Of a DNA stretch of 59,906 nucleotides, positions 223-32,290 are shown in pieces; the first letter of the stretch is position 1, and every line of letters starts with the position of its first letter. Where the stretch lies: assembly GCA_945900775.1 (NCBI GenBank), contig CAMDJP010000013.1, positions 1 through 59,906 of the forward strand, written 5' to 3'. Position numbers and translations under genes: made by a program. The notes under the pieces are model-generated. The model did not search any database, had not been told where the DNA came from, and was given only the letters and a program-made list of their open reading frames with translations. This DNA comes from Akkermansia muciniphila (GTDB lineage: Bacteria; Verrucomicrobiota; Verrucomicrobiia; Limisphaerales; SIAT01).

Positions 223-2064
223 ATGAAATCATTCAGTAAACTCGATGTCCCGCAGTCACAGTGGGCTCGCGGCAGACTTACCACCGTCGCCGCCTTGTTG
301 GCGTTGTGTCTGCCGGTTGCGGCCGCCGATGTCACCTGGTTCGCCTTTTCCGACTGCCACTATGGATCGGGTAAGCCGCCACGGACAACCCACCAGAAGG
401 TCGATTGGATCAACAACCTTCCGGGAACCCCCTTTCCGGATGGAATCACTGGCAAAGTTGAAAAACCGCGCGGGGTCATCATGTCCGGCGACCTCATCGA
501 TAATGGCTCGGATGCGAAAAAATATCCGGGTGAATGGGCAAACTATCTCGCGGAGTTTGGCGTCAACGGCGAGGGGAAGTGCAAGTTCCCGGTTTATGAA
601 GGCATGGGGAACCATGACTGGAACAAGAACCTGTTCATGTACAACAACATCAAGGAGCGTAACCTGAAGCGCAAAGAGCTCGGGTTTATCCAGACGATTT
701 CAGAAAACGGCTACCACTATTCCTGGGATTGGGATGAAATTCACTTCGTCAACCTGAACATCTTTCCAGGCAACATCTGGGCTGGGGAGGCCGACACGTA
801 TGGTGCGGGATCGCACGACCCGCTGATGTCCCGGGCATTCTTGGAGAAGGACTTGCGTGAGAAGGTCGGAAACTCCGGGCGCCCGGTGATCCTGATTCAC
901 CACTTCCGGCCGATCGATGAGAACTGGTGGACCTTCAGTGCCGCGGACAAGTATCACCGGATCATTCAGGACTATAATGTTATCGTCATCATGGTCGGCC
1001 ACCAGGGCGGCGGGGTCAGCAACACGTGGCGCGGGATCAACTGGGCCAGCAGCAATGGCGAGTTGGAGGTCTTCCGGGTCAAGCCGGACAACACGCTCGT
1101 GGCCGTCGGTCGGGGCAGCGAGACGAGTTGGAACAAGCCGTTGCAGAAGAAGATCTTTCTTTCCTATGCGACCTCCGGCTTGCCCGCGGTGGTCAACAAC
1201 GGCGAGTGGACCAGCAACGTCACTCAGGTCAGCGCAATGCTTTCAGGGAAAGTGCTCTATGAAGCCACGGCGGGATCCGAGGCGACCATTTACTGGGGCG
1301 CTAAGGACGGCGGCGATGATCCGAGCAAGTGGGAGAACACGGTGAAGGTCGGAGCCGTGAAAGTCGGTGAGGTCTTCAAAACAAACATCACCGGCCTGAA
1401 GCCGTGGACGGAGTATTTCTACCGCTGCAAGGTCACCAACAGCAAGGGTGAGGCATGGGCGGCAACCTCGATCCCCTTCTTCTCCCGGGGCAACTTGCCG
1501 CCAAACTGGGAAACCGCCTTTGTTGGCTATGAGCAGCGCCCGTGGGGCGGCGCCCATCTGGAGGACAAGGCCATCATCTTGCGCGGCAGCGGCCGGGACA
1601 TCGGTGAGTCGGGCCAAACGATCGACAATTTCCAATACGCCTACTCCGACCAGGCGGGCGATTTCCAACTCCAGGCGCAGCTGAAGGAATTTGGAGCGAA
1701 GACCCGGGGTCCGCTCACGGGGTTGATGATGCGTGCGTCAAAGGACGCAGGAGCGAAGAGCGTGTCGCTGATCTATTCCGACAAGGAGGGGATCCGGCTG
1801 TTCACCCGCAGCGGAACCGATCAAAAAACGACCATCAGCAAGCCGGTGAAAATGCTGGCTCCGGTCCGCCTGAAGTTGGTCCGCAGTGGCACCAGCTTCA
1901 CCGGCTACGCCTCGCCTGACGGCAAGGAGTGGACCCAGGTCGGCGAACCGGTTCCGGTTGTGATGGCCCCCGGCATCACCGCTGGCCTTGGCGTCTGCGC
2001 CGGAAACCGCGACTCATCCAAGAACGTCGTTGCCTTCTTCGACGAGGTCGAAGTGAAAAAGTAA
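223..2064 (+). CDS. Exported calcineurin-like metallophosphoesterase with C-terminal beta domains
   Basis: Predicted 613-residue secreted phosphoesterase. Residues 1-35 form a signal peptide ending in AAA. The metal-binding motifs of the calcineurin-like superfamily follow in order: SDCHYG (about 43), GDLID (about 89), GNHD (about 129), IHH (about 226) and GHQ (about 259). From about residue 330 there is a fibronectin-like segment (YWGAKDGG to SIPFFSRG) and then a laminin-G/DUF1349-like beta sandwich to the C-terminus. I chose the ATG at 223 because the signal peptide follows it directly; an in-frame TTG at 187 is the alternative. The substrate cannot be told from sequence; verrucomicrobial paralogues of this kind are often extracellular phosphodiesterases or phytase-like enzymes. 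It stands alone and is followed by a hairpin at 2094-2116. Confidence 0.85.
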
Positions 2065-8186: not shown

Positions 8187-9014
8187 TCAGGCGGCTCGCC
8201 GCGCAGCGACACGGCTCTTGAGCTTCTCGACGAAGTGATACGGGAGCTTGGTCGAGCCAATCAGAGGTTGCCCCTTATTCATGCCGTGGCAATCAGAACC
8301 ACCGGTGATCAGCAACCGATGTTGATCAGCGATGAGCATATAGTGCTCCATAATCGGCGTGGAATGCCTGGTGTAGAAACACTCCAGTCCATCCATCCCC
8401 ACGGCGACGAGATCTGGGATGACATGGTCCGCGCGGTAAAGCCCGGGGTGAGCGAGCGACGCCAACCCGCCAGCCTGATGGACTAGATCAATCGCCTCAG
8501 CCGCAGTCATCCGATACTTCGCGACCCACGCAGGTTTGCCCTTCTTGAGAAAACGGGCGAACGCTTCGTCCAGCCCAGAACAGATGCCCATCTGGACCAG
8601 CGCGCGACCGATGTGTGGGCGACCGGGCGAACGGCAATTGGCGATGTCGAACACGAGTTGCGCGTCGAGCTTGACGCCCATCGCGTTGATGCGGGCAACC
8701 ATCTCGCGGATGCGGTTGACACGGACCTCCTGAAACTTCGCGAGCGCAGCGCATAGTTTTTCGTTCGTCGTATCGAGGAAGTAGCCGAGCATATGGAGCT
8801 CCTGCCCTTCGTGTTCACAAGTCAACTCGCTGCCGGGAACGAATTCGATTCCATGCGTCGCGCAGGCGGCAGCCATCCGGGGGCAACCCTCCATGGTGTC
8901 GTGGTCCGTCAATGCCACCGCCGCGAAACCGAGTCGGTGCGCGTGACCGGCTAACTCCTCCGGCGTATAGGTGCCGTCGGAGAAGTTCGTATGGAGATGG
9001 AGGTCGGCAAACAT
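8187..9014 (-). CDS. PHP-domain phosphoesterase (TrpH/RNase AM-like)
   Basis: 275 residues. The PHP metal site is complete: HLHTNFSDG at the N-terminus, LTDHDT near 37, GSELTCEH near 62, ASLAHPG near 195 and SDCHG near 250. This is the layout of the YciV/TrpH subfamily, which includes 3',5'-nucleotide bisphosphate phosphatases and 5'-3' RNA exonucleases (RNase AM). The insert between the histidine motifs (GKPAWVAKYRMTAAEAI) is also typical. It lies in the operon between nusB (one base gap) and ftsY. The exact substrate is not determined by sequence. Confidence 0.9.
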   Translation of the reverse strand: MFADLHLHTNFSDGTYTPEELAGHAHRLGFAAVALTDHDTMEGCPRMAAACATHGIEFVPGSELTCEHEGQELHMLGYFLDTTNEKLCAALAKFQEVRVNRIREMVARINAMGVKLDAQLVFDIANCRSPGRPHIGRALVQMGICSGLDEAFARFLKKGKPAWVAKYRMTAAEAIDLVHQAGGLASLAHPGLYRADHVIPDLVAVGMDGLECFYTRHSTPIMEHYMLIADQHRLLITGGSDCHGMNKGQPLIGSTKLPYHFVEKLKSRVAARRAA

Positions 9015-21369: not shown

Positions 21370-21975
21370 TCAACACGGAATGTCCTCGGCCCGCACGTCT
21401 AGGCATTCATCCTGATCCTCCCACACCAGCGCCGGCCACGTGGCGAGCAGGCGCGGCATCAATTCGGAGCCGAGCTGGGCCAGCAGTTGTTCCGCCGCTA
21501 CCGCGGCTTCGTCGAGCGCGCGGTCGTAGTTCGGCGCACGCTTGCGCTGGCGATCATCCCAATGTGCCACTGCATGCAACGGCGCGTAGGCGTCGGCCCA
21601 TTTCTTTAACTCTTCTGCAAGCTCGCCAATCTCGTCGAGCGAAACCGCCGTGCCATTGCAGTGCAGGCACACCAAGCCCGACTCAAGCAGATCGCGGGAG
21701 AGTAGGGGCAAGAGCGGCGCACGACAACACGGCGCCACGCTGTAGGCCGATGGCGGGGAGGCCAGCCGCTTGAGCCAGATCTGGCGCTCATGCGCCACCT
21801 GCGCGGCGAGGCGATAGGCGCCCACCAGCGGGTGTGAAAACCTCCAGACGCGCCCCTCCAACTGCCCAAGCGTCTGCGCCATCCAGCGGGCCAGCGTCAG
21901 GTCATCAAATTCCTTGAACACCCCGCTGTAACCCCGCCATAGGCGGTCGATTGGGGCCTCTTGCTCGTCAGCCAT
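21370..21975 (-). CDS. Hypothetical Cys-containing protein
   Basis: 201 residues from the ATG at 21975 (MADEQEAPIDRLWRGYSG). No signal peptide. The middle has APCCRAPLLPLLSRDLLESG followed by LVCLHCNGTAV, giving two Cys pairs about 25 residues apart that could hold a zinc ion. The rest is helical with many tryptophans and a YDRALDEAAVAAEQLLAQLG helix. I do not recognise a family. An upstream in-frame start at 22032 would add 19 residues encoded partly by a heptamer repeat, and is less likely. Confidence 0.75.
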   Translation of the reverse strand: MADEQEAPIDRLWRGYSGVFKEFDDLTLARWMAQTLGQLEGRVWRFSHPLVGAYRLAAQVAHERQIWLKRLASPPSAYSVAPCCRAPLLPLLSRDLLESGLVCLHCNGTAVSLDEIGELAEELKKWADAYAPLHAVAHWDDRQRKRAPNYDRALDEAAVAAEQLLAQLGSELMPRLLATWPALVWEDQDECLDVRAEDIPC

Positions 21976-22003
21976 GCGAATAAGATGGATGCCGCCACGC
22001 GAA

Positions 22004-22024
22004 GTGCAAAGTTCAAAGTGTGAT
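22004..22024 (+). repeat. Degenerate heptamer array (GTGCAAA GTTCAAA)
   Basis: GTGCAAA, GTTCAAA and a degraded GTGTGAT in phase, immediately upstream of the hypothetical gene start. The same GTTCAAA unit occurs five times in a coding region at 31539-31573. Confidence 0.55.
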
Positions 22025-22068
22025 GATTGCACGCACTAATTATTCCCGGTGCCATTTATCGGCACTGC

Positions 22069-22096
22069 TTTTGCCTTTTTACTTTCGCCATTTGCT
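22069..22096 (+). repeat. Degenerate heptamer array upstream of recG
   Basis: TTTTGCC, TTTTTAC, TTTCGCC and ATTTGCT in phase, ending 14 nt before the recG start. CGGCAC stands a few bases before the array, as it does before the array upstream of proA (29600-29627). Confidence 0.65.
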
Positions 22097-22110
22097 TCTA
22101 AGAACTCATC

Positions 22111-24111
22111 GTGCCGACTGCGCCAGTACCAGCTAATCCCCTCGCTCTACCGATAGCGCAACTGCGCGGCGTCGGCGCAGAGCGCGCGGCTCAACTCAAT
22201 CGCCTCGACCTGCACACCGTCGGCGACTTACTGCTGCACCGGCCGCGGCGTTACGAGGACCGACGCCAATTTCGCCCCATCGTCCAGTTACAGGAAGGCG
22301 AACCGGCACTCACGCGCGGTCACATCGTGGCACAAGGCGTGAAACGATTCGCGCGCGGCCGCAAGTCAGTCTTTGAACTCATCCTCGACGACGGCTCGGC
22401 GCGCTTGCATTGCCGCTGGTGGAACCTCCCGTTCATGGAACGCTACTTCGCCATAGGCGACGATGTACTCGTCTTTGGCAAGCCGCTCTCGCTACGCCCC
22501 TGTACGATGGACCATCCCGAGACCGAGGTGGTCGTGAACGATGCCGAAAGCCAATTACACCTCAACCGCATCGTTCCCGTCCATTCACTCACCGAAGGCC
22601 TCCCCCAGCGGTGGCTGCGCGGTCTACTCTGGCGAGCGGTAAGAGATTTTGCACCACACGTGGCGGAACCGCAGCCAGCGCACGTCGGCCAACCATCCCG
22701 CGCCGAAGCGATTCGCATGCTTCACTTTCCAGAGCGTTTGGATGACGTCGAAATCGCTCGCAAGCGAATGGCATTGGACGAGTTCGTCGCATTACAGCTC
22801 GCGATGCAAAAACGTCGGCGAGCCTGGGAATCGCGGGCAGCCGCTCTGCCCTGCGCTGGCACGAATCAATTGATTCGCCCTTTTCTTGACCGCCTCGGTT
22901 TCCAACTCACCGTCGCTCAAACCACCGTGCTCCGCGAGATTCGCGCCGATCTTGGCGGTCGGCATCCAATGCGCCGACTCCTCCAAGGCGATGTGGGTGC
23001 GGGTAAAACGGTCGTCGCCGCCTGCGCCGCGCTCATGGCGCTCGAGAGCGGACGCAGTGTTGCGCTGATGGATCCGACAGAGATTCTGGCCGAACAGCAC
23101 TTCAACACCTTCCGCGGCTGGCTGGAACCACTCGGCATCGAGGTCCATCTGCTCACCGGCAGCCGCAAAACCAACGCTAGCCAAAAGTCAAAAAGGCGAA
23201 CGCTACAGACTCGAGCCCTTTTCATTGGCACACACGCGCTCTTGGAGGGAGATTTCACCCCCGAAAACCTTGGTCTCATCATCATCGACGAGCAGCACAA
23301 GTTCGGTGTGGCGCAGCGCGAACGACTATTACGCAAAGGTCACTATCCGCACCTGCTCGTGATGACCGCCACGCCCATTCCGCGCACGCTCGGCTTGACG
23401 CTCTACGGCGACCTCGACGTGTCGGTGATTGATCAGCTTCCCGCCGGGCGCGGCCGCCTCCGTACCCACGTGCGCACGAGCGAGACCTTGCCAAAAGTGA
23501 TTGAGTTCATCCGCGAGCAACTCGCACAAGGCCGGCAGGCCTATGTGGTTTACTCCCGCGTGGACGAGGAAAGCTTGGCCGCAGGGGTGAAAGCGGTGAG
23601 AGCTGAGTCGGAAAAGCTCGGCGTTGCACTCGCGCCGTTCCGCGTCGCCGCCCTGCACGGGCGGTTGAAGTCAGCGGAGAAGGAATCTGTGATGGCCGCA
23701 TTCCGCGCGAACGAACTTCAAGTCCTCGTCGCCACCACCGTCATCGAGGTCGGCGTGGATGTGCCGAACGCGACGGTGATGCTCATCGAAAACGCCGAGC
23801 AGTTCGGATTGGCGCAGCTCCACCAATTGCGAGGGCGCATCGGTCGCGGCGCACACGACTCGCACTGCATCCTGTTTTCTAACGCCGATACGCCCGAAGT
23901 GCGCAAGCGGTTGGAGGTGCTGGCCGAGACGAACGATGGCTTCAAGGTGGCGGAGGCGGACCTGTTACTGCGCGGGCCGGGGGACCTGCTCGGACGCGAT
24001 CAGAGCGGCTTGCCAAATTTGCGCTTCGGCGACCTCGCACGCGATCTGCCCCTTCTGGAACAGGCCCGGGAGCTGGCGGCAAAATCGCTCCGCGCATCGC
24101 CGTCAAGCTGA
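22111..24111 (+). CDS. recG: ATP-dependent DNA helicase RecG
   Basis: 666 residues from a GTG start. A wedge/OB domain (about 1-230; LRGVGAERAAQLNRL, then the OB-fold around GHIVAQGVKRF) precedes the two helicase lobes. Motifs: QGDVGAGKTVVA (Walker A, near 290), DEQHKFGVAQRERL (near 395), VMTATPIPRTL (motif III, near 420), VATTVIEVGVDVPNAT (near 545) and QLRGRIGRG (motif VI, near 573). It regresses stalled forks and processes Holliday junctions. A heptamer-repeat-like stretch (23180-23200) lies in the coding sequence after HLLTGSRK. TAAGAA, a weak -10, ends 6 nt before the GTG. Confidence 0.97.
   Translation: MPTAPVPANPLALPIAQLRGVGAERAAQLNRLDLHTVGDLLLHRPRRYEDRRQFRPIVQLQEGEPALTRGHIVAQGVKRFARGRKSVFELILDDGSARLHCRWWNLPFMERYFAIGDDVLVFGKPLSLRPCTMDHPETEVVVNDAESQLHLNRIVPVHSLTEGLPQRWLRGLLWRAVRDFAPHVAEPQPAHVGQPSRAEAIRMLHFPERLDDVEIARKRMALDEFVALQLAMQKRRRAWESRAAALPCAGTNQLIRPFLDRLGFQLTVAQTTVLREIRADLGGRHPMRRLLQGDVGAGKTVVAACAALMALESGRSVALMDPTEILAEQHFNTFRGWLEPLGIEVHLLTGSRKTNASQKSKRRTLQTRALFIGTHALLEGDFTPENLGLIIIDEQHKFGVAQRERLLRKGHYPHLLVMTATPIPRTLGLTLYGDLDVSVIDQLPAGRGRLRTHVRTSETLPKVIEFIREQLAQGRQAYVVYSRVDEESLAAGVKAVRAESEKLGVALAPFRVAALHGRLKSAEKESVMAAFRANELQVLVATTVIEVGVDVPNATVMLIENAEQFGLAQLHQLRGRIGRGAHDSHCILFSNADTPEVRKRLEVLAETNDGFKVAEADLLLRGPGDLLGRDQSGLPNLRFGDLARDLPLLEQARELAAKSLRASPSS
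23180..23200 (+). repeat. Heptamer-like units inside recG
   Basis: GCCAAAA, GTCAAAA and AGGCGAA in phase, encoding the lysine- and serine-rich stretch SQKSKRR. On the other strand they read TTTTGAC/TTTTGGC, close to the units upstream of recG itself. Confidence 0.5.
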
Positions 24112-24361
24112 CCAGACCATTTTTCATTTTGCGCCGCGCACCTGTCGCTACCTTACGAGATGAGCGCTGCAACCATTCCGGCCCCACTCGACCTCACTCT
24201 TCTGCGAGACTAGAATCGCGTCACGGCGATTCACGTTCCTTCTGGCAGACTCCGTGATTGAACATGAACCCCACTTTGCCGTGTCAAATCGTTCGCCCAG
24301 CGAGCCACTACGCACCCGTTTGCCAGTTGCAGTTTACCCCTCTCTCGGCTAGGTAAAGGCT
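24112..24361. other. Intergenic region between recG and pta
   Basis: 250 nt. It holds the pta promoter candidate at its right end and an 17-codon reading frame at 24160-24213 (starting MSAATIPAPL) that is too short to support as a gene. No terminator hairpin with a T-run is seen. Confidence 0.5.
24327..24355 (+). promoter_or_regulatory. Candidate pta promoter, leaderless layout
   Basis: TTGCAG (24327-24332), 17-nt spacer, TAGGTA (24350-24355), then 6 nt to the ATG at 24362. Confidence 0.45.
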
Positions 24362-25420
24362 ATGCGGTTCATCAGCGGCATCATCGAGAAGCTCAAACGC
24401 CATCCCAAGCGCGTCGTATTCCCTGAGGGCACGGAGCCACGTGTGCTGCAGGCCGCGCGTCAGTTCTACTCGCTCAACCTCGGCGCGCCTATCCTGCTCG
24501 GTGACCGCACCAAAGTGAAGGAGGCCGCCGAACTTCTGAACGTCTCACTCGGCGGCGTCCGCATCATCAACCCCGTCGAGAGCGAGGAGTTGCCCAGCTT
24601 CGTCGAACGCTACAAATTCCTCCGTCGACTCAAAGGTGTTACCGACGAGGATGCTCACGAGATCATGACGCGCCCGAACTATTTCGCCGCCATGATGGTC
24701 GCAATGCATCAGGCTGACGGCGTCATCTCCGGCACCAACGAAGCCGCCGGTAGCGTGCTGCGGCCGTTCTTCCAGATTATCAAGGTTGCTCCGCACGCCA
24801 CCACCGCTTCGAGTTGCATGATTATGGAGGTGGAGGACACACGCTTCGGGCACACTGGCGCGCTCTTTCTCGCCGACTGCGGCGTCATTCCCGACCCGAC
24901 AGCCGAGCAACTCGCCGACATCGCCGTCGGCACCGCGCAACTCGCGCGCCAGCTCCTCGGCATCCCACCGCGCGTGGCGTTGCTTTCCTTCTCCACGAAA
25001 GGAAGTGCCTCTCATCCCTCGATTGGCAAAGTGCAGGCCGCCACCGCCCTCGCCCAGCAGAAGGCCGCCGCGCAACGCATCGAAGCCGACTTCGACGGCG
25101 AACTGCAGCTCGACGCCGCTCTGATTCCCGAGATTGCCAAACGCAAAGTCGCGCAAAGCGCCGTGGCCGGACGCGCCAACGTGCTAGTCTTCCCTGACCT
25201 CAACGCCGGCAACATCGGTAGCAAACTCGTGCAGCACCTCGCACGCGCCAACGCCTACGGCCAGATCCTCCTCGGCCTCGACCGACCTGCCGCCGATGTC
25301 TCGCGAGGTTCCACTGCTCACGACATCCTTGGCGTCGCCGCCATCGTTGGCCTGCAGTCCATTGAGTACAATCTGCTTTACCCCGAGTCCGAGATAAAAC
25401 TGCCCGGCGAGTCACGATGA
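24362..25420 (+). CDS. pta: Phosphate acetyltransferase, catalytic domain
   Basis: 352 residues, the length of the stand-alone PTA/PTB domain. Family segments are present: VVFPEGTEPRVLQAA near 18, GTNEAAGSVLRPFFQII near 125, ADCGVIPDPTAEQLADIA near 178, VALLSFSTKGSA near 215, GELQLDAALIPEIA near 240 and NVLVFPDLNAGNI near 278. It interconverts acetyl-CoA and acetyl-phosphate. The next gene (overlap 4 nt) carries the regulatory BioD/DRTGG part that long Pta enzymes have at their N-terminus, so this looks like a split Pta. No acetate kinase gene is in the window. Confidence 0.93.
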   Translation: MRFISGIIEKLKRHPKRVVFPEGTEPRVLQAARQFYSLNLGAPILLGDRTKVKEAAELLNVSLGGVRIINPVESEELPSFVERYKFLRRLKGVTDEDAHEIMTRPNYFAAMMVAMHQADGVISGTNEAAGSVLRPFFQIIKVAPHATTASSCMIMEVEDTRFGHTGALFLADCGVIPDPTAEQLADIAVGTAQLARQLLGIPPRVALLSFSTKGSASHPSIGKVQAATALAQQKAAAQRIEADFDGELQLDAALIPEIAKRKVAQSAVAGRANVLVFPDLNAGNIGSKLVQHLARANAYGQILLGLDRPAADVSRGSTAHDILGVAAIVGLQSIEYNLLYPESEIKLPGESR

Positions 25421-26517
25421 ACACGAGTACGCCCCGCGTCTTCATCGCGGCCACGCGGCAGAACGACGGCAAGACTACCACATCCCTCGGCCTGCTCGCA
25501 GCGCTGCAGAAAATCCACGCGCGAATCGGCTACATCAAGCCGGTCGGCCAGCGCTACGTCGAAATCGCCAAGCATAAGATTGACGAAGACACCGTCTTGA
25601 TGGACCGCGTATACGGCCTCAACTGCCCGCTCGACGCGATGAGCCCTCTGGCCATCTCGCCCGAATTCACCCGCCGCTACATCGAATCCGCCAACAGTGC
25701 CCCGCTGGTCGCCCAGCTTCAGAAGGCCTTCGACCGCGTCGCGTGGGAGAAGGACTTCGTCCTGTGCGAAGGTTCCGGCCACGCCGGCGTCGGTTCGGTG
25801 TTCGACATGTCCAACGCTCGCGTGGCGAAGGTGCTCGGCGCCAAGGCCGTCATTGTCACACAAGGCGGCATCGGCCGACCGATCGATGAGGTCGCTATTA
25901 ACCACGCCCTCTTCGAAAAGGAGGGCGTTGAGGTCATTGGCGTCATTCTCAACAAGGTCTTGCCCGAGAAGCTCGACCACATCGCCGACTTTGCCCGACG
26001 CGGCCTAAAGCGCAAGGGGCTGGAGCTTCTCGGCGTACTGCCCCACCAAGCACTGCTCACTTATCCCACAGTCGCCTCGATTCAGGAGGAACTATCCGCC
26101 GAGGAACTGAATCGAACGCAACATCTGAGTAACCTCGTCCGCGAGGTCGTCATCGGCGCAATGAGTGTCGAAAACGCCCGCCGATACTTCAAACCCGGCG
26201 TTCTCCTCATCACCCCTGGAGACCGCGAGGATATCATCCTCTCCGCCAGCACCGTGATGCTCGATGACGAGAACACCCTTGCTGGCATCGTCCTCACTGG
26301 CGGTCTTCGCCCCGGCACCAACGTGCTCAAGATTCTCCGCGACGTCCCCTACCCCGTTCTACTCGCCCAGGAAGACAGCTACCAAATCGCCTCCAAGGTA
26401 CACGACCTGACCGTCAAGACCCGCCCCGGCGATACCGAAAAGATTTCCGTCATCCGCGAACTCGTGGCCAAGCATGTTGACCTAAAAAAACTTCTCGCCG
26501 CGCTCGTCACTCGCTGA
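25417..26517 (+). CDS. BioD-like/DRTGG-domain protein (Pta N-terminal-like)
   Basis: 366 residues. The N-terminal P-loop domain has AATRQNDGKTTTSLGLLA (residues about 10-27), then the BioD-type segment IGYIKPVGQRY and CEGSGHAGVG near 127. The C-terminal half is a DRTGG domain (about 215-330; ENARRYFKPGVLLITPGDRED), which in long phosphotransacetylases and in CBS-PPase is a regulatory module. The ATGA overlap with pta and the matching domain content suggest it acts with the phosphotransacetylase, perhaps as an ATP- or NADH-sensing regulatory subunit; this role is inference. BioD itself (dethiobiotin synthase) is unlikely because DRTGG is absent from BioD. Confidence 0.85.
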   Translation: MNTSTPRVFIAATRQNDGKTTTSLGLLAALQKIHARIGYIKPVGQRYVEIAKHKIDEDTVLMDRVYGLNCPLDAMSPLAISPEFTRRYIESANSAPLVAQLQKAFDRVAWEKDFVLCEGSGHAGVGSVFDMSNARVAKVLGAKAVIVTQGGIGRPIDEVAINHALFEKEGVEVIGVILNKVLPEKLDHIADFARRGLKRKGLELLGVLPHQALLTYPTVASIQEELSAEELNRTQHLSNLVREVVIGAMSVENARRYFKPGVLLITPGDREDIILSASTVMLDDENTLAGIVLTGGLRPGTNVLKILRDVPYPVLLAQEDSYQIASKVHDLTVKTRPGDTEKISVIRELVAKHVDLKKLLAALVTR

Positions 26518-26543
26518 CGGCGATCCATCGCTCATTGAACCCG

Positions 26544-27638
26544 ATGAAACTCCCGCTCAATCCCGCACTCGCAAATCTCGCCGTCTACCTGCCTGGACGG
26601 CCCATCGCCGAGGTCGCCCGCGAACTGAACCTCGACCCCGCCAGCATCATCAAACTCGCCTCGAATGAGAACCCGCTCGGCCCTTCTCCTAAAGCGCTCG
26701 AAGCGATGCGCCACGCGATCTCATCCACGCATCTTTACCCCGACGGAAGCGCATTTTATCTCAAGCAGAAGCTCGCCGATAAACTCGGCGTCGCCCCCGC
26801 GAATCTCGTTCTCGGCAATGGTTCCAACGAGATCATCGAATTCGTCGGTCGCGCCCTCCTCGCCTCCGGCGACAACATCGTCGTCTCGCAGTACTGTTTC
26901 GCTATCTACCCCATCATCGCGCGGATGATGGGCGCCGATGTCATCACCGTCCCTGCCCGTGATTACGGCCATGACCTGCGAGTGATGACTCGCGCCATTA
27001 CGCCGCGTACGAAAATCATTTTCGTCGCCAACCCGAATAACCCCACCGGCACGCGCGCGCCCGAGGCCGACGTGGTCGAACTAATCAACAACGTCCCGCC
27101 CCATGTCCTGCTCGTCATGGACGAGGCGTACATCGAGTTCCTTGAACATCCGGTGGACCTACTCCCACTCGTGCGCCGAGGTGATTTTCCGAACCTCATC
27201 CTGATGCGCACCTTTTCGAAAATCTTCGGACTCGCCGGTCTACGACTCGGTTACGGCATCGGCCATCCCGACCTCGTTCTCGCGCTAGAGAAGATCCGTC
27301 AGCCATTCAACGCCAACTCTCTCGCTCAGGCCGCCGCCCTCGCCGCGCTGGGCGATGGCGAGCACATCGCCCGCACCCGCCACATCAACACACAGGGCCT
27401 CGAGTTCTACACGCTCGCCTTCCGCCAGATGGGTCTCGAGTTCGTCCCCTCGCACGCCAACTTCATCCTCGTGCGGGTCGGCGACGGCCAGCGCGTCTTC
27501 AACGAACTTCAGAAACTTGGCGTCATCACCCGCTCGATGGCCAGCTATCAACTCCCTGAATGGGTGCGGATCTCCGTGGGTACCGCTGCCGAGAATACCC
27601 GTTGCCTCACCGCACTGCGCACAGTGTTGGGTAAATGA
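26544..27638 (+). CDS. hisC: Histidinol-phosphate aminotransferase
   Basis: 364 residues; an upstream TTG at 26535 is the alternative start. A fold-type I PLP enzyme: LASNENPLGPSPKA near 35, a GNGSNEIIEFV segment near 90, FVANPNNPTGT near 160, VMDEAYIEF near 190 and the Schiff-base lysine in RTFSKIFGLAGLRLGYG near 220. It transaminates imidazole acetol-phosphate with glutamate in histidine synthesis; some members also act on aromatic amino acids. It lies in a rightward series pta-BioD-like-hisC-argA, but no other his gene is present. Confidence 0.94.
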   Translation: MKLPLNPALANLAVYLPGRPIAEVARELNLDPASIIKLASNENPLGPSPKALEAMRHAISSTHLYPDGSAFYLKQKLADKLGVAPANLVLGNGSNEIIEFVGRALLASGDNIVVSQYCFAIYPIIARMMGADVITVPARDYGHDLRVMTRAITPRTKIIFVANPNNPTGTRAPEADVVELINNVPPHVLLVMDEAYIEFLEHPVDLLPLVRRGDFPNLILMRTFSKIFGLAGLRLGYGIGHPDLVLALEKIRQPFNANSLAQAAALAALGDGEHIARTRHINTQGLEFYTLAFRQMGLEFVPSHANFILVRVGDGQRVFNELQKLGVITRSMASYQLPEWVRISVGTAAENTRCLTALRTVLGK

Positions 27639-27728
27639 GGTGAAGAGTTTTCAGTTGAATCGCCGGCGAACCTCTCCTTATCTTGTAGCCGGTGCTGGAG
27701 GTTCCGGCCCTGAACTGGACACGACAAA

Positions 27729-29018
27729 GTGAAACCGACTGATCTGCGGGGCATCCTGCAATACATCCCGCGCTTCCGCGAGAAGACCTTCGTCATCAGT
27801 GTCGACGGCGGGGTCGTCACGAACGAGAACTTCGCCAACATCCTCTTGGACGTGGCAGTGCTCCGTTCGCTAAACATCCGTGTCGTGCTCGTCCACGGCG
27901 CCGCCGCGCAGATCGCCTCGCTCGCTAAGGAGAAGAAAATCGCCGCCTCGGACATCGAAGGCACCGGCGTGACCGACGACGCCACTCTCAAACTCGCCCT
28001 CACCGCGGCCAATCGGCTGACGCACGAGATCCTCGAAGGTCTCTCCGCGAACGATCTCCGCGCCGCCTGCACGAACGGCATCATCGCTCACCCCATGGGT
28101 ATTCTCGGCGGTGTCGATCACCTCTTCACCGGCAAGGTCGAGCGCGTGGACATCGAGTTGCTGCAGACTCTCCTCTCGCAAGCCATCGTCCCCGTTGTGC
28201 CGCCACTCGGCTTCGATGGCGACGGCAAGACCTACCGCGTCAACTCCGACGGCGTCGCCACTGCACTCGCCGATGCCTTGAAGGCCGTGAAGCTCATCTT
28301 CATCACCACGCACGACGGACTTGTCGCGCAGGGCCAGCTTATCCGGCAGATGCTCGTCGCCGATCTGGAAAAGAAACTCGCCGAGAACAAAGGTCTCTTC
28401 GCGAACGGCATGCTCTCCAAAGCCCAGCACGCCATCGCCGCTTGCAAAGCCGGCGTCCAGCGCGTTCACATCATCAATGGCTGCGAGGATGAAGGGCTGC
28501 TCGCCGAGGTTTTCTCCAATGAAGGCATCGGCACACTCATCTACGCCAATGAATACCAAGCCGTCCGGCGCGCGCTGAAGAAGGACGTTCGCCACATTCT
28601 CCAGCTCATCAAAGGCTCCGTCGAGAGCGAGGAACTGGTCAAACGTACCCACGCCAGTGTCGAGAAGCAGCTCGGCGACTATTACATCTTCGAAATCGAC
28701 AAGAATCCCGTCGCCTGCATCGCCCTGCACCTCTATCCCGAAGCGAAAAAAGGCGAGCTCGCGTGCCTTTACGTCAAAGCTTCCCACGAGAATCAGGGTA
28801 TCGGCCGCAAGCTGATCCAGTTCGTTGAGAACAAGGCCCGCGAGCTAAACCTCGCCGAACTCCTCACCCTCTCCACGCAGGCGTTCACTTATTTCCAATC
28901 CAAAGGCGGCTTCATCGAAGGCACCTCCGACGACCTCCCACCTGCCCGGCGCGAGAAATACGACGCCAGCGGTCGCCACTCCAAGGTCCTCGTCAAGAAA
29001 CTCGCCAAGCCCGTCTGA
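27729..29018 (+). CDS. argA: Amino-acid N-acetyltransferase (acetylglutamate synthase)
   Basis: 429 residues from a GTG start, close to E. coli ArgA (443). The N-terminal amino-acid-kinase-like domain includes VISVDGGVVTNENFAN near 20, VLVHGAAAQI near 54 and VNSDGVATALADAL near 170. The C-terminal GNAT domain (about 290-429) has LACLYVKASHENQGIGRKLI, where the acetyl-CoA pyrophosphate loop QGIGRK is intact. It makes N-acetylglutamate, the first step of arginine synthesis. It starts 90 nt after hisC and is followed 4 nt later by the L,D-transpeptidase gene. Confidence 0.95.
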   Translation: MKPTDLRGILQYIPRFREKTFVISVDGGVVTNENFANILLDVAVLRSLNIRVVLVHGAAAQIASLAKEKKIAASDIEGTGVTDDATLKLALTAANRLTHEILEGLSANDLRAACTNGIIAHPMGILGGVDHLFTGKVERVDIELLQTLLSQAIVPVVPPLGFDGDGKTYRVNSDGVATALADALKAVKLIFITTHDGLVAQGQLIRQMLVADLEKKLAENKGLFANGMLSKAQHAIAACKAGVQRVHIINGCEDEGLLAEVFSNEGIGTLIYANEYQAVRRALKKDVRHILQLIKGSVESEELVKRTHASVEKQLGDYYIFEIDKNPVACIALHLYPEAKKGELACLYVKASHENQGIGRKLIQFVENKARELNLAELLTLSTQAFTYFQSKGGFIEGTSDDLPPARREKYDASGRHSKVLVKKLAKPV

Positions 29019-29022
29019 CCAA

Positions 29023-29574
29023 GTGCCGCCGCTGGCCTCAGCCACGCTCCCCGCCGAACTGAGCGCCGCCGTTGCGCGGCTCGCCGTGCCGCTCACGCCG
29101 CATGTCGTCGTCGTGCACGTAGCCGCCCAGACGGCCGAGTTATTCAGCTGTTCTCCGACCGGCGACACTCTTCTCCGCGCGATGCGCTGCTCCACCTCGC
29201 GCGTCGGCACTGGGCAGGCGAAGGATTCCAACCGTACGCCGCTCGGGCTGCATCGCGTGGCCGAGAAGATCGGCAAAGGCGAGCCGGTCGGCATGGTCTT
29301 CAAAGCGCGCCAACCGGTCGGGATGGAAATCACCGGCAACCCAGCCACGGCCATCACCACGCGAATTCTCTGGCTCGACGGGCTTGAGCCAGGGTTCAAC
29401 CGCGACGGCGACGTGGACACGCACGCGCGTTACATCTACATCCACGGCACGGGCGATGAGGAGACAATCGGCCAGCCGGTCTCCGCGGGCTGCATCCATC
29501 TCGCCGCGGCCGATCTCGTGCCGCTCTTCGACACGGTCGCCAGCGGCACGCTGGTCTGGATTGAAGAACGCTGA
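29023..29574 (+). CDS. L,D-transpeptidase (YkuD domain)
   Basis: 183 residues from a GTG. The YkuD catalytic motif is intact: YIYIHGTGDEETIG then SAGCIHLAAADLV, that is HG...SxGC(I)H with the nucleophilic Cys. These enzymes form meso-DAP-DAP cross-links or attach lipoproteins to peptidoglycan in the periplasm. No N-terminal signal peptide or membrane helix is visible before the domain (starting near residue 25), so either export is by an unusual route, the true start is upstream, or the product acts inside. It is 4 nt from argA. Confidence 0.85.
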   Translation: MPPLASATLPAELSAAVARLAVPLTPHVVVVHVAAQTAELFSCSPTGDTLLRAMRCSTSRVGTGQAKDSNRTPLGLHRVAEKIGKGEPVGMVFKARQPVGMEITGNPATAITTRILWLDGLEPGFNRDGDVDTHARYIYIHGTGDEETIGQPVSAGCIHLAAADLVPLFDTVASGTLVWIEER

Positions 29575-29599
29575 AGGGGAGGCGGTTTGCGCCCGGCAC

Positions 29600-29627
29600 T
29601 TTTGCCTTTTGCCTTTCGCGGTTTGGC
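29600..29627 (+). repeat. Heptamer array upstream of proA
   Basis: TTTTGCC, TTTTGCC, TTTCGCG, GTTTGGC in phase, 14 nt before the proA start, preceded by CGGCAC as at the recG array. Confidence 0.7.
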
Positions 29628-29640
29628 TTAACGTCTCCAC

Positions 29641-30927
29641 ATGACTCTGAACGAGCAGATGACGGGACTGGCGCGGGACGCCAAGTCCGCCTCGCGTGCG
29701 CTGGCGCAGCTCACTACCGCCGAGAAGAACACCTGCCTGCTCGCCATGGCGGACGCTATCGCGAGGAACACCGCCGCCATTCAGGCCGCCAATGGGCTCG
29801 ATATGGAGGCAAGCTGTGCAACGGGAATTTCCAGTGCCATGCTCGACCGCCTCAAGCTCGACGACAAACGCCTCGCCGCCATGGCTGGCGGTCTGCGGGA
29901 GGTTGCCGCGTTGCCCGACCCCGTCGGCCGCACCCTCGACGACCGCACACGCCCAAATGGCTTGCGTCTCCAGAAAATCGCCACCCCCATTGGTGTCGTC
30001 GTGATCATCTACGAGTCGCGCCCGAACGTGACCGCTGATGCCGCGAGCCTGTGCTTCAAGACCGGCAACGCCACGATCCTGCGCGGCGGCAAGGAAGCCT
30101 TGCACTCGAACACCGTCATCGCCGAAACAATGGTCGCCGCCGGTCGGGCTGCACTGGGGGAGCGTTTCCCCGCGCACGCAATTCAAGTCGTGCCCACCAC
30201 CGACCGCGAGGCCATCCCCGCCCTGCTCTCGCTCACGCAATACGTGGACCTCTGCATGCCCCGCGGCGGCGAGGGCCTCATCCGCGCCGTAGCCGAGTGC
30301 AGCAAGGTGCCCGTCATCAAGCATTACAAGGGCGTCTGCCACGTCTTCGTCCACGCCGCCGCCGACCTCGCGATGGCCCACTCAATCGTGATGAACGCAA
30401 AGGTCCAGCGCCCCGCCGTCTGCAACGCAGCAGAGACACTGCTCGTCGACAAAGCTGTGGCGGAGAAATTCCTGCCCGCAATCGCTGGGAAACTATCCGA
30501 GAAAAACGTTGAGCTGCGCGCCAGCCCAGATGCGCTCGCGGTCCTTGCCCCGCTGAAAACTGGAAACTGGAAACTGAGCGCTGCGACGGAGCAGGACTGG
30601 TTCACCGAATACAACGACTACATCCTCAACGTCCGCGTCGTGGACGGCGTGCAGGGAGCGATTGACCACATCAACCACTACGGCTCCGCGCACAGCGACA
30701 GCATCGTGACGACGGACGAGACGGCGGCGCGGCAATTCCTCGCCGAGGTGGACAGCGCGGCGGTCTATTGGAACGCGAGCACGCGCTTCACCGATGGCGG
30801 GGAGTTCGGCATGGGCGCGGAAATCGGCATCAGCACCGACAAAATTGGCGCGCGCGGCCCGATGGGCCTGGATGAGTTGTGCACCTACAAATGGCTCGGG
30901 TTTGGCTCGGGCCAAGTGCGCGGCTGA
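29641..30927 (+). CDS. proA: Gamma-glutamyl phosphate reductase
   Basis: 428 residues (E. coli 417). The aldehyde-dehydrogenase fold shows TPIGVVVIIYESRPNVT near 118, a KTGNATILRGGKEA segment near 140, VPVIKHYKGVCHVFV near 222 and the catalytic Cys in VQRPAVCNAAETLL near 258. The C-terminal half has FTEYNDYILNVRVVDG near 322 and NASTRFTDGGEFGMGAEIG near 380. It reduces glutamyl-phosphate to the semialdehyde after ProB. Residues about 306-312 (KTGNWKL) are encoded by three tandem heptamers and appear as an insert relative to the family. TAACGT ends 6 nt before the ATG. Confidence 0.96.
   Translation: MTLNEQMTGLARDAKSASRALAQLTTAEKNTCLLAMADAIARNTAAIQAANGLDMEASCATGISSAMLDRLKLDDKRLAAMAGGLREVAALPDPVGRTLDDRTRPNGLRLQKIATPIGVVVIIYESRPNVTADAASLCFKTGNATILRGGKEALHSNTVIAETMVAAGRAALGERFPAHAIQVVPTTDREAIPALLSLTQYVDLCMPRGGEGLIRAVAECSKVPVIKHYKGVCHVFVHAAADLAMAHSIVMNAKVQRPAVCNAAETLLVDKAVAEKFLPAIAGKLSEKNVELRASPDALAVLAPLKTGNWKLSAATEQDWFTEYNDYILNVRVVDGVQGAIDHINHYGSAHSDSIVTTDETAARQFLAEVDSAAVYWNASTRFTDGGEFGMGAEIGISTDKIGARGPMGLDELCTYKWLGFGSGQVRG
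30557..30577 (+). repeat. Three AAACTGG heptamers inside proA
   Basis: AAACTGG, AAACTGG, AAACTGA in phase: 21 nt, a multiple of both 7 and 3, so the reading frame is kept. Confidence 0.85.
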
Positions 30928-30940
30928 GGACGAGCCCAGC

Positions 30941-32290
30941 ATGGGCATCAACAACGTGAACGCCGCCAGCCACAACACACCAGCCAACGCGGCGGACCGC
31001 GCACGATTCATCCGCGAGTCACTGCCCCTGGGCGGACTCTTCGCCGGACATGAATGGCATTTGGCAATGGATTCCTTCCCGCTCGGCCCCCAACTCGCGC
31101 GCGAACTGGAATCGCTCGGTCGCGTGCTGCTGCAGTTCTACCGCGCGGCGAATCTACTTCACCGACGCAGCGCCGAAGGCAAGCAGCCGGAGTGGGTCGC
31201 GCACCTCCTCGATCAAGGCAAGCCCGCCGCGCTCCTCGAACTGCAGCGCGATTCCGCGTTCAAGAACGACATTCCGCGCATCATTCGGCCCGACATTTTA
31301 CTCACCGAGGAAGGCTTCAGCATCACGGAACTGGACAGCGTCCCCGGTGGCATCGGCCTCACGGCGTGGTTGAACGAGACCTACTCGCGCGCTGGGACCA
31401 CGGTGACTGGTGGCGCCACGGGGATGCTCGATGGCTTCGCTGGCATATTCGGCGACGCCTCGCGCGTCCACCTCGTCGTCTCTGAAGAGTCAGCCACGTA
31501 CCGACCGGAAATGGAGTGGCTGGCCGGGCGGCTGGACAGTTCAAAGTTCATGGTTCAAGACTCAAAGTTCGAAGGCTTCGCCGACGACGACGCTGTTTAC
31601 CGCTTCTTCGAGCTGTTCGACCTCGCGAACGTGCCGACCTCGCGGGCCATCTTCGAACGCGCACGGGAGAAGCGGCTTCAGCTGACGCCGCCGGCCAAGC
31701 CGCTCTTCGAAGAGAAACTCCTCTTCGCCCTGCTCTGGAACCGCAACCTGCGGCCATTTTGGCGAGAGCATCTTGGTGAGTCGTTCCTCGAGCGCCTCCT
31801 ACGACATTTCCCGTACACGTGGGTGCTGGACCCTGCCCCGCTGCCGCCGCACGCGGGCATCCCGGAGCTGAACCTAACCGATTGGCAGCAGCTCAAGACT
31901 CTTTCGCAGCGCGAGCGGGAGCTGATTCTGAAAGTATCCGGGTTCTCTGAAAAGGCCTGGGGCGCGCGCGGCGTACATCTCGGAAGCGACCTCTCTCACG
32001 CGGATTGGAGCACGGCTGTGGACGAGGCTCTCGCCAGCTTTCCTCACTCGCCCCATGTCCTGCAGCGCTTCCACAAGCCGCGCCTCGTCCGGCACGAGTG
32101 GTTTGATTTTTCGGAAGATCGCGTGAAGACTCTAGAAGGGCGCGTGCGCCTCTGCCCGTACTATTTTGTCCATGGCGATGGCGATGCCGCGCGGACGGTG
32201 CTGGGCGGGGTGCTGGCAACGATTTGTCCGGCCGATAAGAAGATCATCCACGGGATGCGCGACGCGATTCTCACACCATGCAAAACATGA
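30941..32290 (+). CDS. Conserved hypothetical, possibly ATP-grasp-like
   Basis: 449 residues from the ATG at 30941, 13 nt after proA. The stretch GFSITELDSVPGGIGLTAWL (near 127) resembles the ITELDSRPGG segment of glutathionylspermidine-synthase-type ATP-grasp enzymes, and the tail CPYYFVHGDGDAARTVLGGV with CPADKKIIHGM could supply the end of such a fold. A tetra-helical middle (EEKLLFALLWNRNLRPFW near 265) and a LKVSGFSEKAWGARGVHLGS loop near 340 are also visible. No definite catalytic residues can be assigned. Residues about 200-211 (SSKFMVQDSKFE) are encoded by a heptamer array. It overlaps marC by 13 nt. Confidence 0.8.
   Translation: MGINNVNAASHNTPANAADRARFIRESLPLGGLFAGHEWHLAMDSFPLGPQLARELESLGRVLLQFYRAANLLHRRSAEGKQPEWVAHLLDQGKPAALLELQRDSAFKNDIPRIIRPDILLTEEGFSITELDSVPGGIGLTAWLNETYSRAGTTVTGGATGMLDGFAGIFGDASRVHLVVSEESATYRPEMEWLAGRLDSSKFMVQDSKFEGFADDDAVYRFFELFDLANVPTSRAIFERAREKRLQLTPPAKPLFEEKLLFALLWNRNLRPFWREHLGESFLERLLRHFPYTWVLDPAPLPPHAGIPELNLTDWQQLKTLSQRERELILKVSGFSEKAWGARGVHLGSDLSHADWSTAVDEALASFPHSPHVLQRFHKPRLVRHEWFDFSEDRVKTLEGRVRLCPYYFVHGDGDAARTVLGGVLATICPADKKIIHGMRDAILTPCKT
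31539..31573 (+). repeat. Five degenerate heptamers in the ATP-grasp-like gene
   Basis: GTTCAAA, GTTCATG, GTTCAAG, ACTCAAA, GTTCGAA in phase, 35 nt in all, read as SKFMVQDSKFE. Unlike the 21-nt arrays, 35 nt is not a multiple of three, so an insertion would need a compensating change. Confidence 0.8.

Follow-up and report, generated by a model that had tools for sequence, protein, structure and literature searches.

In the 59,906-base contig C13, the whole of which was analysed here (the window), the start codons of recG and proA are each preceded by a short array of TTTTGCC-like heptamers. These arrays are probably the upstream half (a T-tract near -42, a -35 element and the spacer) of sigma-A (sigma-70-type) promoters which abut the coding sequence, and the mRNAs made from them are predicted to be leaderless. 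The window belongs to assembly G000 (2,565,645 bases in 74 contigs), which we compared with two congeners (G001 and G002), with other genomes of the order (among them G012, G023 and G051) and with one genome from another order (G077). A preliminary description had drawn attention to the arrays; the leaderless inference was not part of it and is drawn from the present analysis.

The three to four heptamers reported in that description are present before both genes, and the TANNNN hexamer that follows each array (TAAGAA at recG, TAACGT at proA) does end exactly 6 nucleotides (nt) before both starts. The arrays had been said to end 14 nt before the start, which is correct for recG, while the distance at proA is 13 nt. 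They had also been proposed to replace a -35 element. This holds in so far as each array, running from about -42 to -14, covers the -35 position together with the spacer and leaves the TANNNN hexamer at the -10 place. TTTTTA at recG (17-nt spacer) and TTTTGC at proA (16-nt spacer) are T-rich and correctly positioned for -35 elements. GGAG, GAGG and AGGA are all absent from the last 25 nt upstream of either start. The TAA of each hexamer is a stop in frame with the gene, 12 nt ahead of its start, so neither start codon can lie further upstream; the open frames comprise 669 codons (recG) and 431 codons (proA) and the proteins 666 and 428 amino acids. Either gene may start further downstream; the alignment with RecG of G002 begins at residue 1, and the majority of the proA orthologues start at the same residue. 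recG and gene 21370-21975 form a divergent pair 135 nt apart and, since recG heads this pair, a promoter is expected there.

The same -10 signal recurs at the starts of other genes. We defined operon heads as genes whose upstream DNA is free for 40 nt or more, using a simple gene caller of our own, and sampled 377 heads in 859,906 bases of G000 (the window plus 40 stretches) and 197 heads in 374,000 bases of G002. TANNNT with its first T at -12 was found at 16 of the 377 G000 heads, proA among them, against 2.72 per position (P = 3e-8), and at 10 of the 197 G002 heads against 1.20 (P = 6e-7). Three further genomes of the order, when pooled, gave 8 of 156 (1.60 expected; P = 3e-4), G077 gave 4 of 62 (0.78; P = 8e-3), and E. 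coli, run through the same pipeline, gave 0 of 125 (2.46). We rejected the explanation that the peak consists merely of TAA and TAG in-frame stops. Among 730 heads pooled from five genomes, TA[CT]NNT, which cannot be an in-frame stop, stood at -12 in 16 cases (background 2.16; P = 1e-9), and the control hexamers TGANNT and TA[CT]NN[not T] stood there 2 and 5 times (2.90 and 7.02, respectively); stops contribute a little to the peak and do not explain it. An expectation-maximization (EM) search seeded with TTGACA and TANNNT under a uniform position prior returned, in G000, a TTGCCA-like element, a mostly 17-nt spacer and a TANNNT-like element, with a position peak at -12 (18.1 versus about 4).

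Shine-Dalgarno 4-mers at -13 to -8 formed no peak at the heads of G000 (22, with 22.7 expected) or G002 (11, with 13.2), and numbered 65 at E. coli heads (6.1 expected). At operon-internal genes they were raised both in G000 (27 versus 18.1; P = 0.03) and in G002 (17 versus 5.2; P = 3e-5). This pattern fits heads that would often be leaderless and operon-internal genes that would rely more on Shine-Dalgarno sites, and suggests that G000 and G002 may use two initiation modes divided by operon position. A 16S rRNA match is absent from the G000 assembly, and its anti-Shine-Dalgarno tail is therefore unreadable there.

The two upstream regions were compared with those of relatives. At recG, a 20-nt run over the first heptads is identical in G002 and is followed by TATGAA, 6 nt and GTG. 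At proA, the heptads are missing from G001 and G002, which keep CTTAACA and CTTAGCT at the same distance from the start; the heptads themselves are therefore not the feature kept before proA. We assembled 58 proA loci (L204-L233 and L274-L301) and used 54, omitting L227, L232, L233 and L300, mostly because the N-terminus was missing or the entry was a second piece of a locus; 53 of these, from 53 genomes, aligned at the N-terminus. TANNNT began at -14 to -11 (5-8 nt before the start) in 39 of the 53, with 0-8 in each of 12 other four-position windows, and T was favoured at -43 to -41 (0.47-0.57) and at -35 to -33 (0.57-0.70). For recG we collected 67 loci (53 from G000, its congeners and other genomes of the order, and 14 named Verrucomicrobial ones), 64 of them usable; the upstream sequences of L044 and L197 are identical, so that one or more genomes probably enter this set twice. 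TANNNT lay 5-8 nt before an in-frame start in 19 of the 64, compared with 2-9 at 12 other offsets, and locus L177, for example, reads TTTCCCGTTGAAC, 17 nt, TATCGT, 8 nt, ATG. In G002, too, recG and proA share a strand, with about 8 kb between them (contig C22, at 3651 and 11962).

The start-anchored word table revealed a third element, with TTTNNC raised at -42 (10 versus 3.22). This T-tract was noticed in the same data and then rechecked without the window and genome by genome, and its P values are somewhat generous. TTT at -43 to -41 numbered 61 over the 342 G000 heads outside the window (24.7 expected; P = 5e-10), 30 in G002 (13.9; P = 1e-4) and 7 in G012 (1.8). Over 695 pooled heads, from which the window and G077 were excluded, the distance from TTT to the following TT peaked at 7 (32 versus 8.0). 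Since distances of 6 (29 versus 7.8), 8 (21 versus 8.4) and 3 (21 versus 8.9) were raised as well, the 7-bp spacing is a preference and no rule. Heads carrying TTTNNNNTT at -44 to -40 had TANNNT at -15 to -11 in 10 of 27 cases, against 58 of 668 for the rest (odds ratio 6.2; P = 9e-5). The T-tract could explain the seven-base step between the first two heptads, the first being the putative -42 tract and the second the putative -35 element. A general 7-nt T periodicity over the proA promoters was considered and rejected, as it did not exceed run-preserving shuffles (lag 7, z 0.3; the largest value was at lag 14, z 1.9).

In the arrangement we propose, the elements would run outward from the start codon as a -10 hexamer at -12 to -7, a spacer of 16-17 nt, a -35 element rich in T and, at about -42, a T-tract. 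Sigma-A would recognise the -35 and -10 elements and RNA polymerase would melt the -10 hexamer; because this hexamer ends 6 nt before the start codon, standard geometry would have the RNA begin at the ATG or GTG or within a few nt of it. Such an mRNA would lack both leader and Shine-Dalgarno site and be bound by ribosomes directly at its 5' start codon. The -42 T-tract might act in the manner of a proximal UP subsite, touched by the C-terminal domain of the RNA polymerase alpha subunit. The heptad look would come from a T-tract that promoters of the genus frequently have about 7 bp above the -35 element, with T-rich heptads additionally filling the spacer at recG and proA. Much more tentatively, and as a conjecture that may well prove wrong, we speculate that the housekeeping promoter of this genus is a three-part unit abutting the start codon, in which a top-strand T-tract at about -42, seven bp above the -35 element, strengthens leaderless promoters and is read by RNA polymerase alpha or by a dedicated partner, recG and proA being extremes in which the 7-bp T phasing continues from -42 through the spacer.

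Several observations weigh against these promoters and the leaderless mRNAs predicted from them. At the two genes themselves, the -35 hexamers match TTGACA poorly, the recG -10 hexamer (TAAGAA, and TATGAA in G002) lacks the final T of TANNNT, a simple sigma-70 scan detects neither promoter, and a YkuD gene lies 66 nt upstream of proA, from which transcription could read through. Among relatives, the signal is not seen in 45 of the 64 recG loci, G012 lacks the -12 peak (0 of 39 heads), and the T-tract is absent in G023 (2 versus 5.8), G051 (4 versus 5.6) and G077 (5 versus 7.0). The EM search in G002 gave a vaguer motif and a weaker peak (6.4 at -12 and 5.7 at -11, with about 2 elsewhere). The exact signal is present in just a few percent of heads, and the starts depend on our home-made gene caller. 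Stop-bearing hexamers also sharpen the peak at -12: TA[AG]NN[not T] stood there 14 times (7.62 expected; P = 0.02), and among heads with no in-frame stop within 24 nt the counts at -13 and -12 were 8 and 5 in G000 (2.06 expected), 4 and 3 in G002 (0.96), and 0 and 5 in the other genomes of the order (1.10).

How rare the arrays are bears on what else they could be. A single TTTTGCC occurs at chance level (10 in the window, 10.5 expected), and the 14-mer TTTTGCCTTTTGCC with up to 3 mismatches shows some enrichment in the window (12 versus 5.84, a count reached by 2 of 100 shuffles). Over the whole of G000, TTTTGCCTTTTGCC has 2 exact matches, with none for its reversed control, and 23 matches with up to 2 mismatches, near the 17 of the control. 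Three consecutive TTTTGCC heptads with up to 3 mismatches occur at just two sites in the 2,565,645 bases, the recG and proA arrays themselves (reversed control, 0). There is therefore no genome-wide array family, and TTTTGCC was rejected as a genome-wide regulator motif. The enrichment of arrays upstream of start codons, which the preliminary description had put forward as a check, holds weakly, in that there are only these two, both at about the same offset from the start.

An improbable alternative is that the arrays are small heptanucleotide minisatellites grown by slippage and without a function of their own, a view compatible with the promoters proposed here if the growth took place on a promoter. 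Such repeats are abundant in some relatives: TTTTGCCTTTTGCC is present in 15 of the 58 genomes of the order searched (own included), with 11 having one match, or two in the case of G000 and G010, and with 5 matches in G046, 18 in G004 and 35 in G008; those of the last two are minisatellites in long arrays, many overlapping long open frames. Three exact units were found in 0 of 144 genomes of the phylum (the own genome plus 143 of other orders). Against slippage, the only two G000 sites sit over promoter positions, and the recG array is shared with the congener G002.

The preliminary description had also envisaged that the arrays bind a regulator. Direct-repeat sites for a transcription regulator common to recG and proA would suit an almost identical pair of arrays, at about equal offsets, 7.5 kb from each other and unmatched elsewhere in the assembly, as well as the identical 20-nt run at recG in G002. 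Also, CTTT pairs spaced by 7 nt occur at just three of the 377 heads, all within the window and at -43/-42, namely those of recG, of proA and of the gene divergent to recG. Such pairs are not above other spacings, however (2 at 4 nt, 2 at 6 and 2 at 13). The heptads before proA are not kept in either congener, the sites number two genome-wide, and the first two units coincide with the -42 T-tract and -35 spacing common in the genus. A shared regulator thus goes unsupported and is, in our judgement, quite unlikely.

We consider it more doubtful still that the arrays belong to the 5' leader of an mRNA starting further upstream, as a pyrimidine-rich site for the ribosome (bS1) or for another RNA-protein contact. 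They are pyrimidine-rich, close to the start codon and free of nearby Shine-Dalgarno 4-mers, and such a role has been proposed, in the part of MacGregor 2015 (PMC4679880) drawn on here, for heptamers just upstream of starts, the Beggiatoaceae TAACTGA repeats. Array and start are separated, however, by a putative -10 element at leaderless distance, which at proA is conserved across the order. That the arrays are chance T-rich sequence is highly implausible, since single heptamers are indeed at chance level but both triple-heptad sites take up roughly the same position ahead of start codons, with a control of zero, and the recG run is shared with G002; chance is an unlikely cause of this pairing of arrays with two start codons.

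The arrangement predicted here resembles known systems, for which we draw on portions of the papers cited. TANNNT about 12 bp before the start codon has been described as characteristic of leaderless genes (Zheng et al. 2011, PMC3160421), and in Deinococcus-Thermus the -10 element adjoins the open reading frame (PMC12340547). The TA-led promoters of Actinobacteria and Deinococcus-Thermus are alike in having the -10 element next to the start codon; the comparison covers the -10 element, the phylum is another one, and the genus studied here adds a T-tract at about -42. In the same phylum, Cappable-seq of Akkermansia muciniphila placed about 10 % of transcription start sites (TSSs) at gene starts (PMC4782308), and Akkermansia, for which leaderless transcripts are reported, is also listed as Shine-Dalgarno-scarce (PMC10783764). 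TSSs were measured there and are predicted here, and the relatives that we found are metagenome-assembled genomes (MAGs) named as Limisphaerales, Pedosphaera or other Verrucomicrobia. At the E. coli rrnB P1 promoter, adenines at -41 to -43 matter in the proximal UP subsite (PMC4390567), an A/T tract just upstream of the -35 element as in our genus; the adenines are on the top strand there, whereas the top strand here has T, and the alpha contact is putative. The TAACTGA direct repeats of Beggiatoaceae (PMC4679880) are likewise 7-nt repeats just upstream of starts, but they form 169 sets in one genome, against two here, and use another word; the arrays here are fitted by promoter elements. An intergenic heptamer family of that kind involves many copies per genome, and we found 2 sites in 2.57 Mb.

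Our literature search, made mostly without subscription journals, found no report of leaderless transcripts for Limisphaerales; among its results the Akkermansia TSS paper alone bears directly on such transcripts in the phylum. The two promoters look like an arrangement already known in bacteria, placed in a little-studied lineage and with a genus-specific detail at -42. Leaderless initiation, measured in Akkermansia, is thereby suggested also for another order of Verrucomicrobiota; the -10 signal may serve to check start-codon calls in that order wherever a Shine-Dalgarno site is missing; and the -42 T-tract is a testable promoter feature.

Table. Positions in the window of the heptad units, the predicted promoter elements and the genes next to them.
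Feature	Position	Strand	Basis and remarks
recG array units	TTTTGCC 22069-22075; TTTTTAC 22076-22082; TTTCGCC 22083-22089; ATTTGCT 22090-22096	+	sequence
recG candidate promoter, upstream T-tract (-42 to -39 from GTG)	22069..22072	+	sequence; TTT enrichment at -43..-41 of G000 heads outside the window; kept in G002
recG candidate -35 element TTTTTA (-35 to -30), within heptad 2	22076..22081	+	17-nt spacer to -10; 20-nt run GCTTTTGCCTTTTTACTTTC identical in G002
recG candidate spacer, heptad-like units 3 and 4	22083..22096	+	sequence; G002 keeps only part
recG candidate -10 element TAAGAA (-12 to -7)	22099..22104	+	sequence; TATGAA in G002; last base A, consensus T; TAA also in-frame stop
recG, start codon GTG	22111..24111	+	Pfam RecG_wedge, DEAD, Helicase_C, RecG_dom3_C; start identical in G002
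proA array units	TTTTGCC 29600-29606; TTTTGCC 29607-29613; TTTCGCG 29614-29620; GTTTGGC 29621-29627	+	sequence
proA candidate promoter, upstream T-tract (-41 to -38)	29600..29603	+	sequence; T favoured at -43..-41 across 53 proA loci
proA candidate -35 element TTTTGC	29607..29612	+	sequence; 16-nt spacer to -10; T favoured at -35..-33 across 53 proA loci
proA candidate spacer, heptad-like units 3 and 4	29614..29627	+	sequence; heptads not kept in G001, G002
proA candidate -10 element TAACGT (-12 to -7)	29629..29634	+	TANNNT starting -14..-11 in 39/53 proA loci
proA (gamma-glutamyl phosphate reductase), start codon ATG	29641..30927	+	Pfam Aldedh only; gene name from the preliminary description; orthologues start at same residue
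Divergent promoter-like region of gene 21370-21975: CTTTGAA CTTTGCA pair at -43/-36, CATCTT at -12..-7	21982..22018	-	sequence; G002 keeps part

The product of the gene at 29641 belongs to the aldehyde-dehydrogenase family by its Pfam match, which is consistent with proA. Relatives of RecG place the window among Verrucomicrobiota, near Limisphaerales and Pedosphaera MAGs, and the 14 closest named ones are all MAGs; megablast searches with recG (against plasmids) and with a piece of proA (against E. coli genomes) gave no match and were uninformative. The G002 counterpart of the divergent region 21982-22018 carries CAAAGTGCAAAGTGC on the plus strand.

The preliminary description had placed CGGCAC just before both arrays. 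It is contiguous with the proA array (29594-29599), while at recG (22060-22065) TGC intervenes. As a conserved lead-in it was rejected, the recG copy not being kept in the G002 alignment; in the window this copy is part of an imperfect hairpin (22047-22067) which, by the same alignment, G002 does not keep either. CGGCAC is common in the window, with 78 matches against 57.2 in shuffles (standard deviation 7.7).

The minisatellites of G004 and G008 (loci L154-L170) have up to 13 TTTTGCC units, with one unit imperfect. Since the unit length of 7 cannot be divided by 3, all their frames read one peptide cycle, FCLLPFA. In three of the 17 loci, which were viewed by eye (L155, L158 and L164), the array forms the hydrophobic core of a signal-peptide-like segment, which in L158 precedes a sulfatase-like start. 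Other arrays of 7-nt phased T-runs occur in G000 at L033 (about 1660-1700, minus strand) and L041 (503-535, plus strand), with the words TTTTCAATTTCAAATTTCGAATTTCGCC and CTTTTACCTTTGGCCTTTGGACTTTGAACC. Elsewhere in the window, period-7 repeats lie at 30553-30576 (CTGGAAA, 3.4 copies) and 31538-31574 (AGTTCAA, 5.3 copies). Locus L031 carries several copies of a 12-bp repeat, GCCCTCACCTTT, at 8900-8970.

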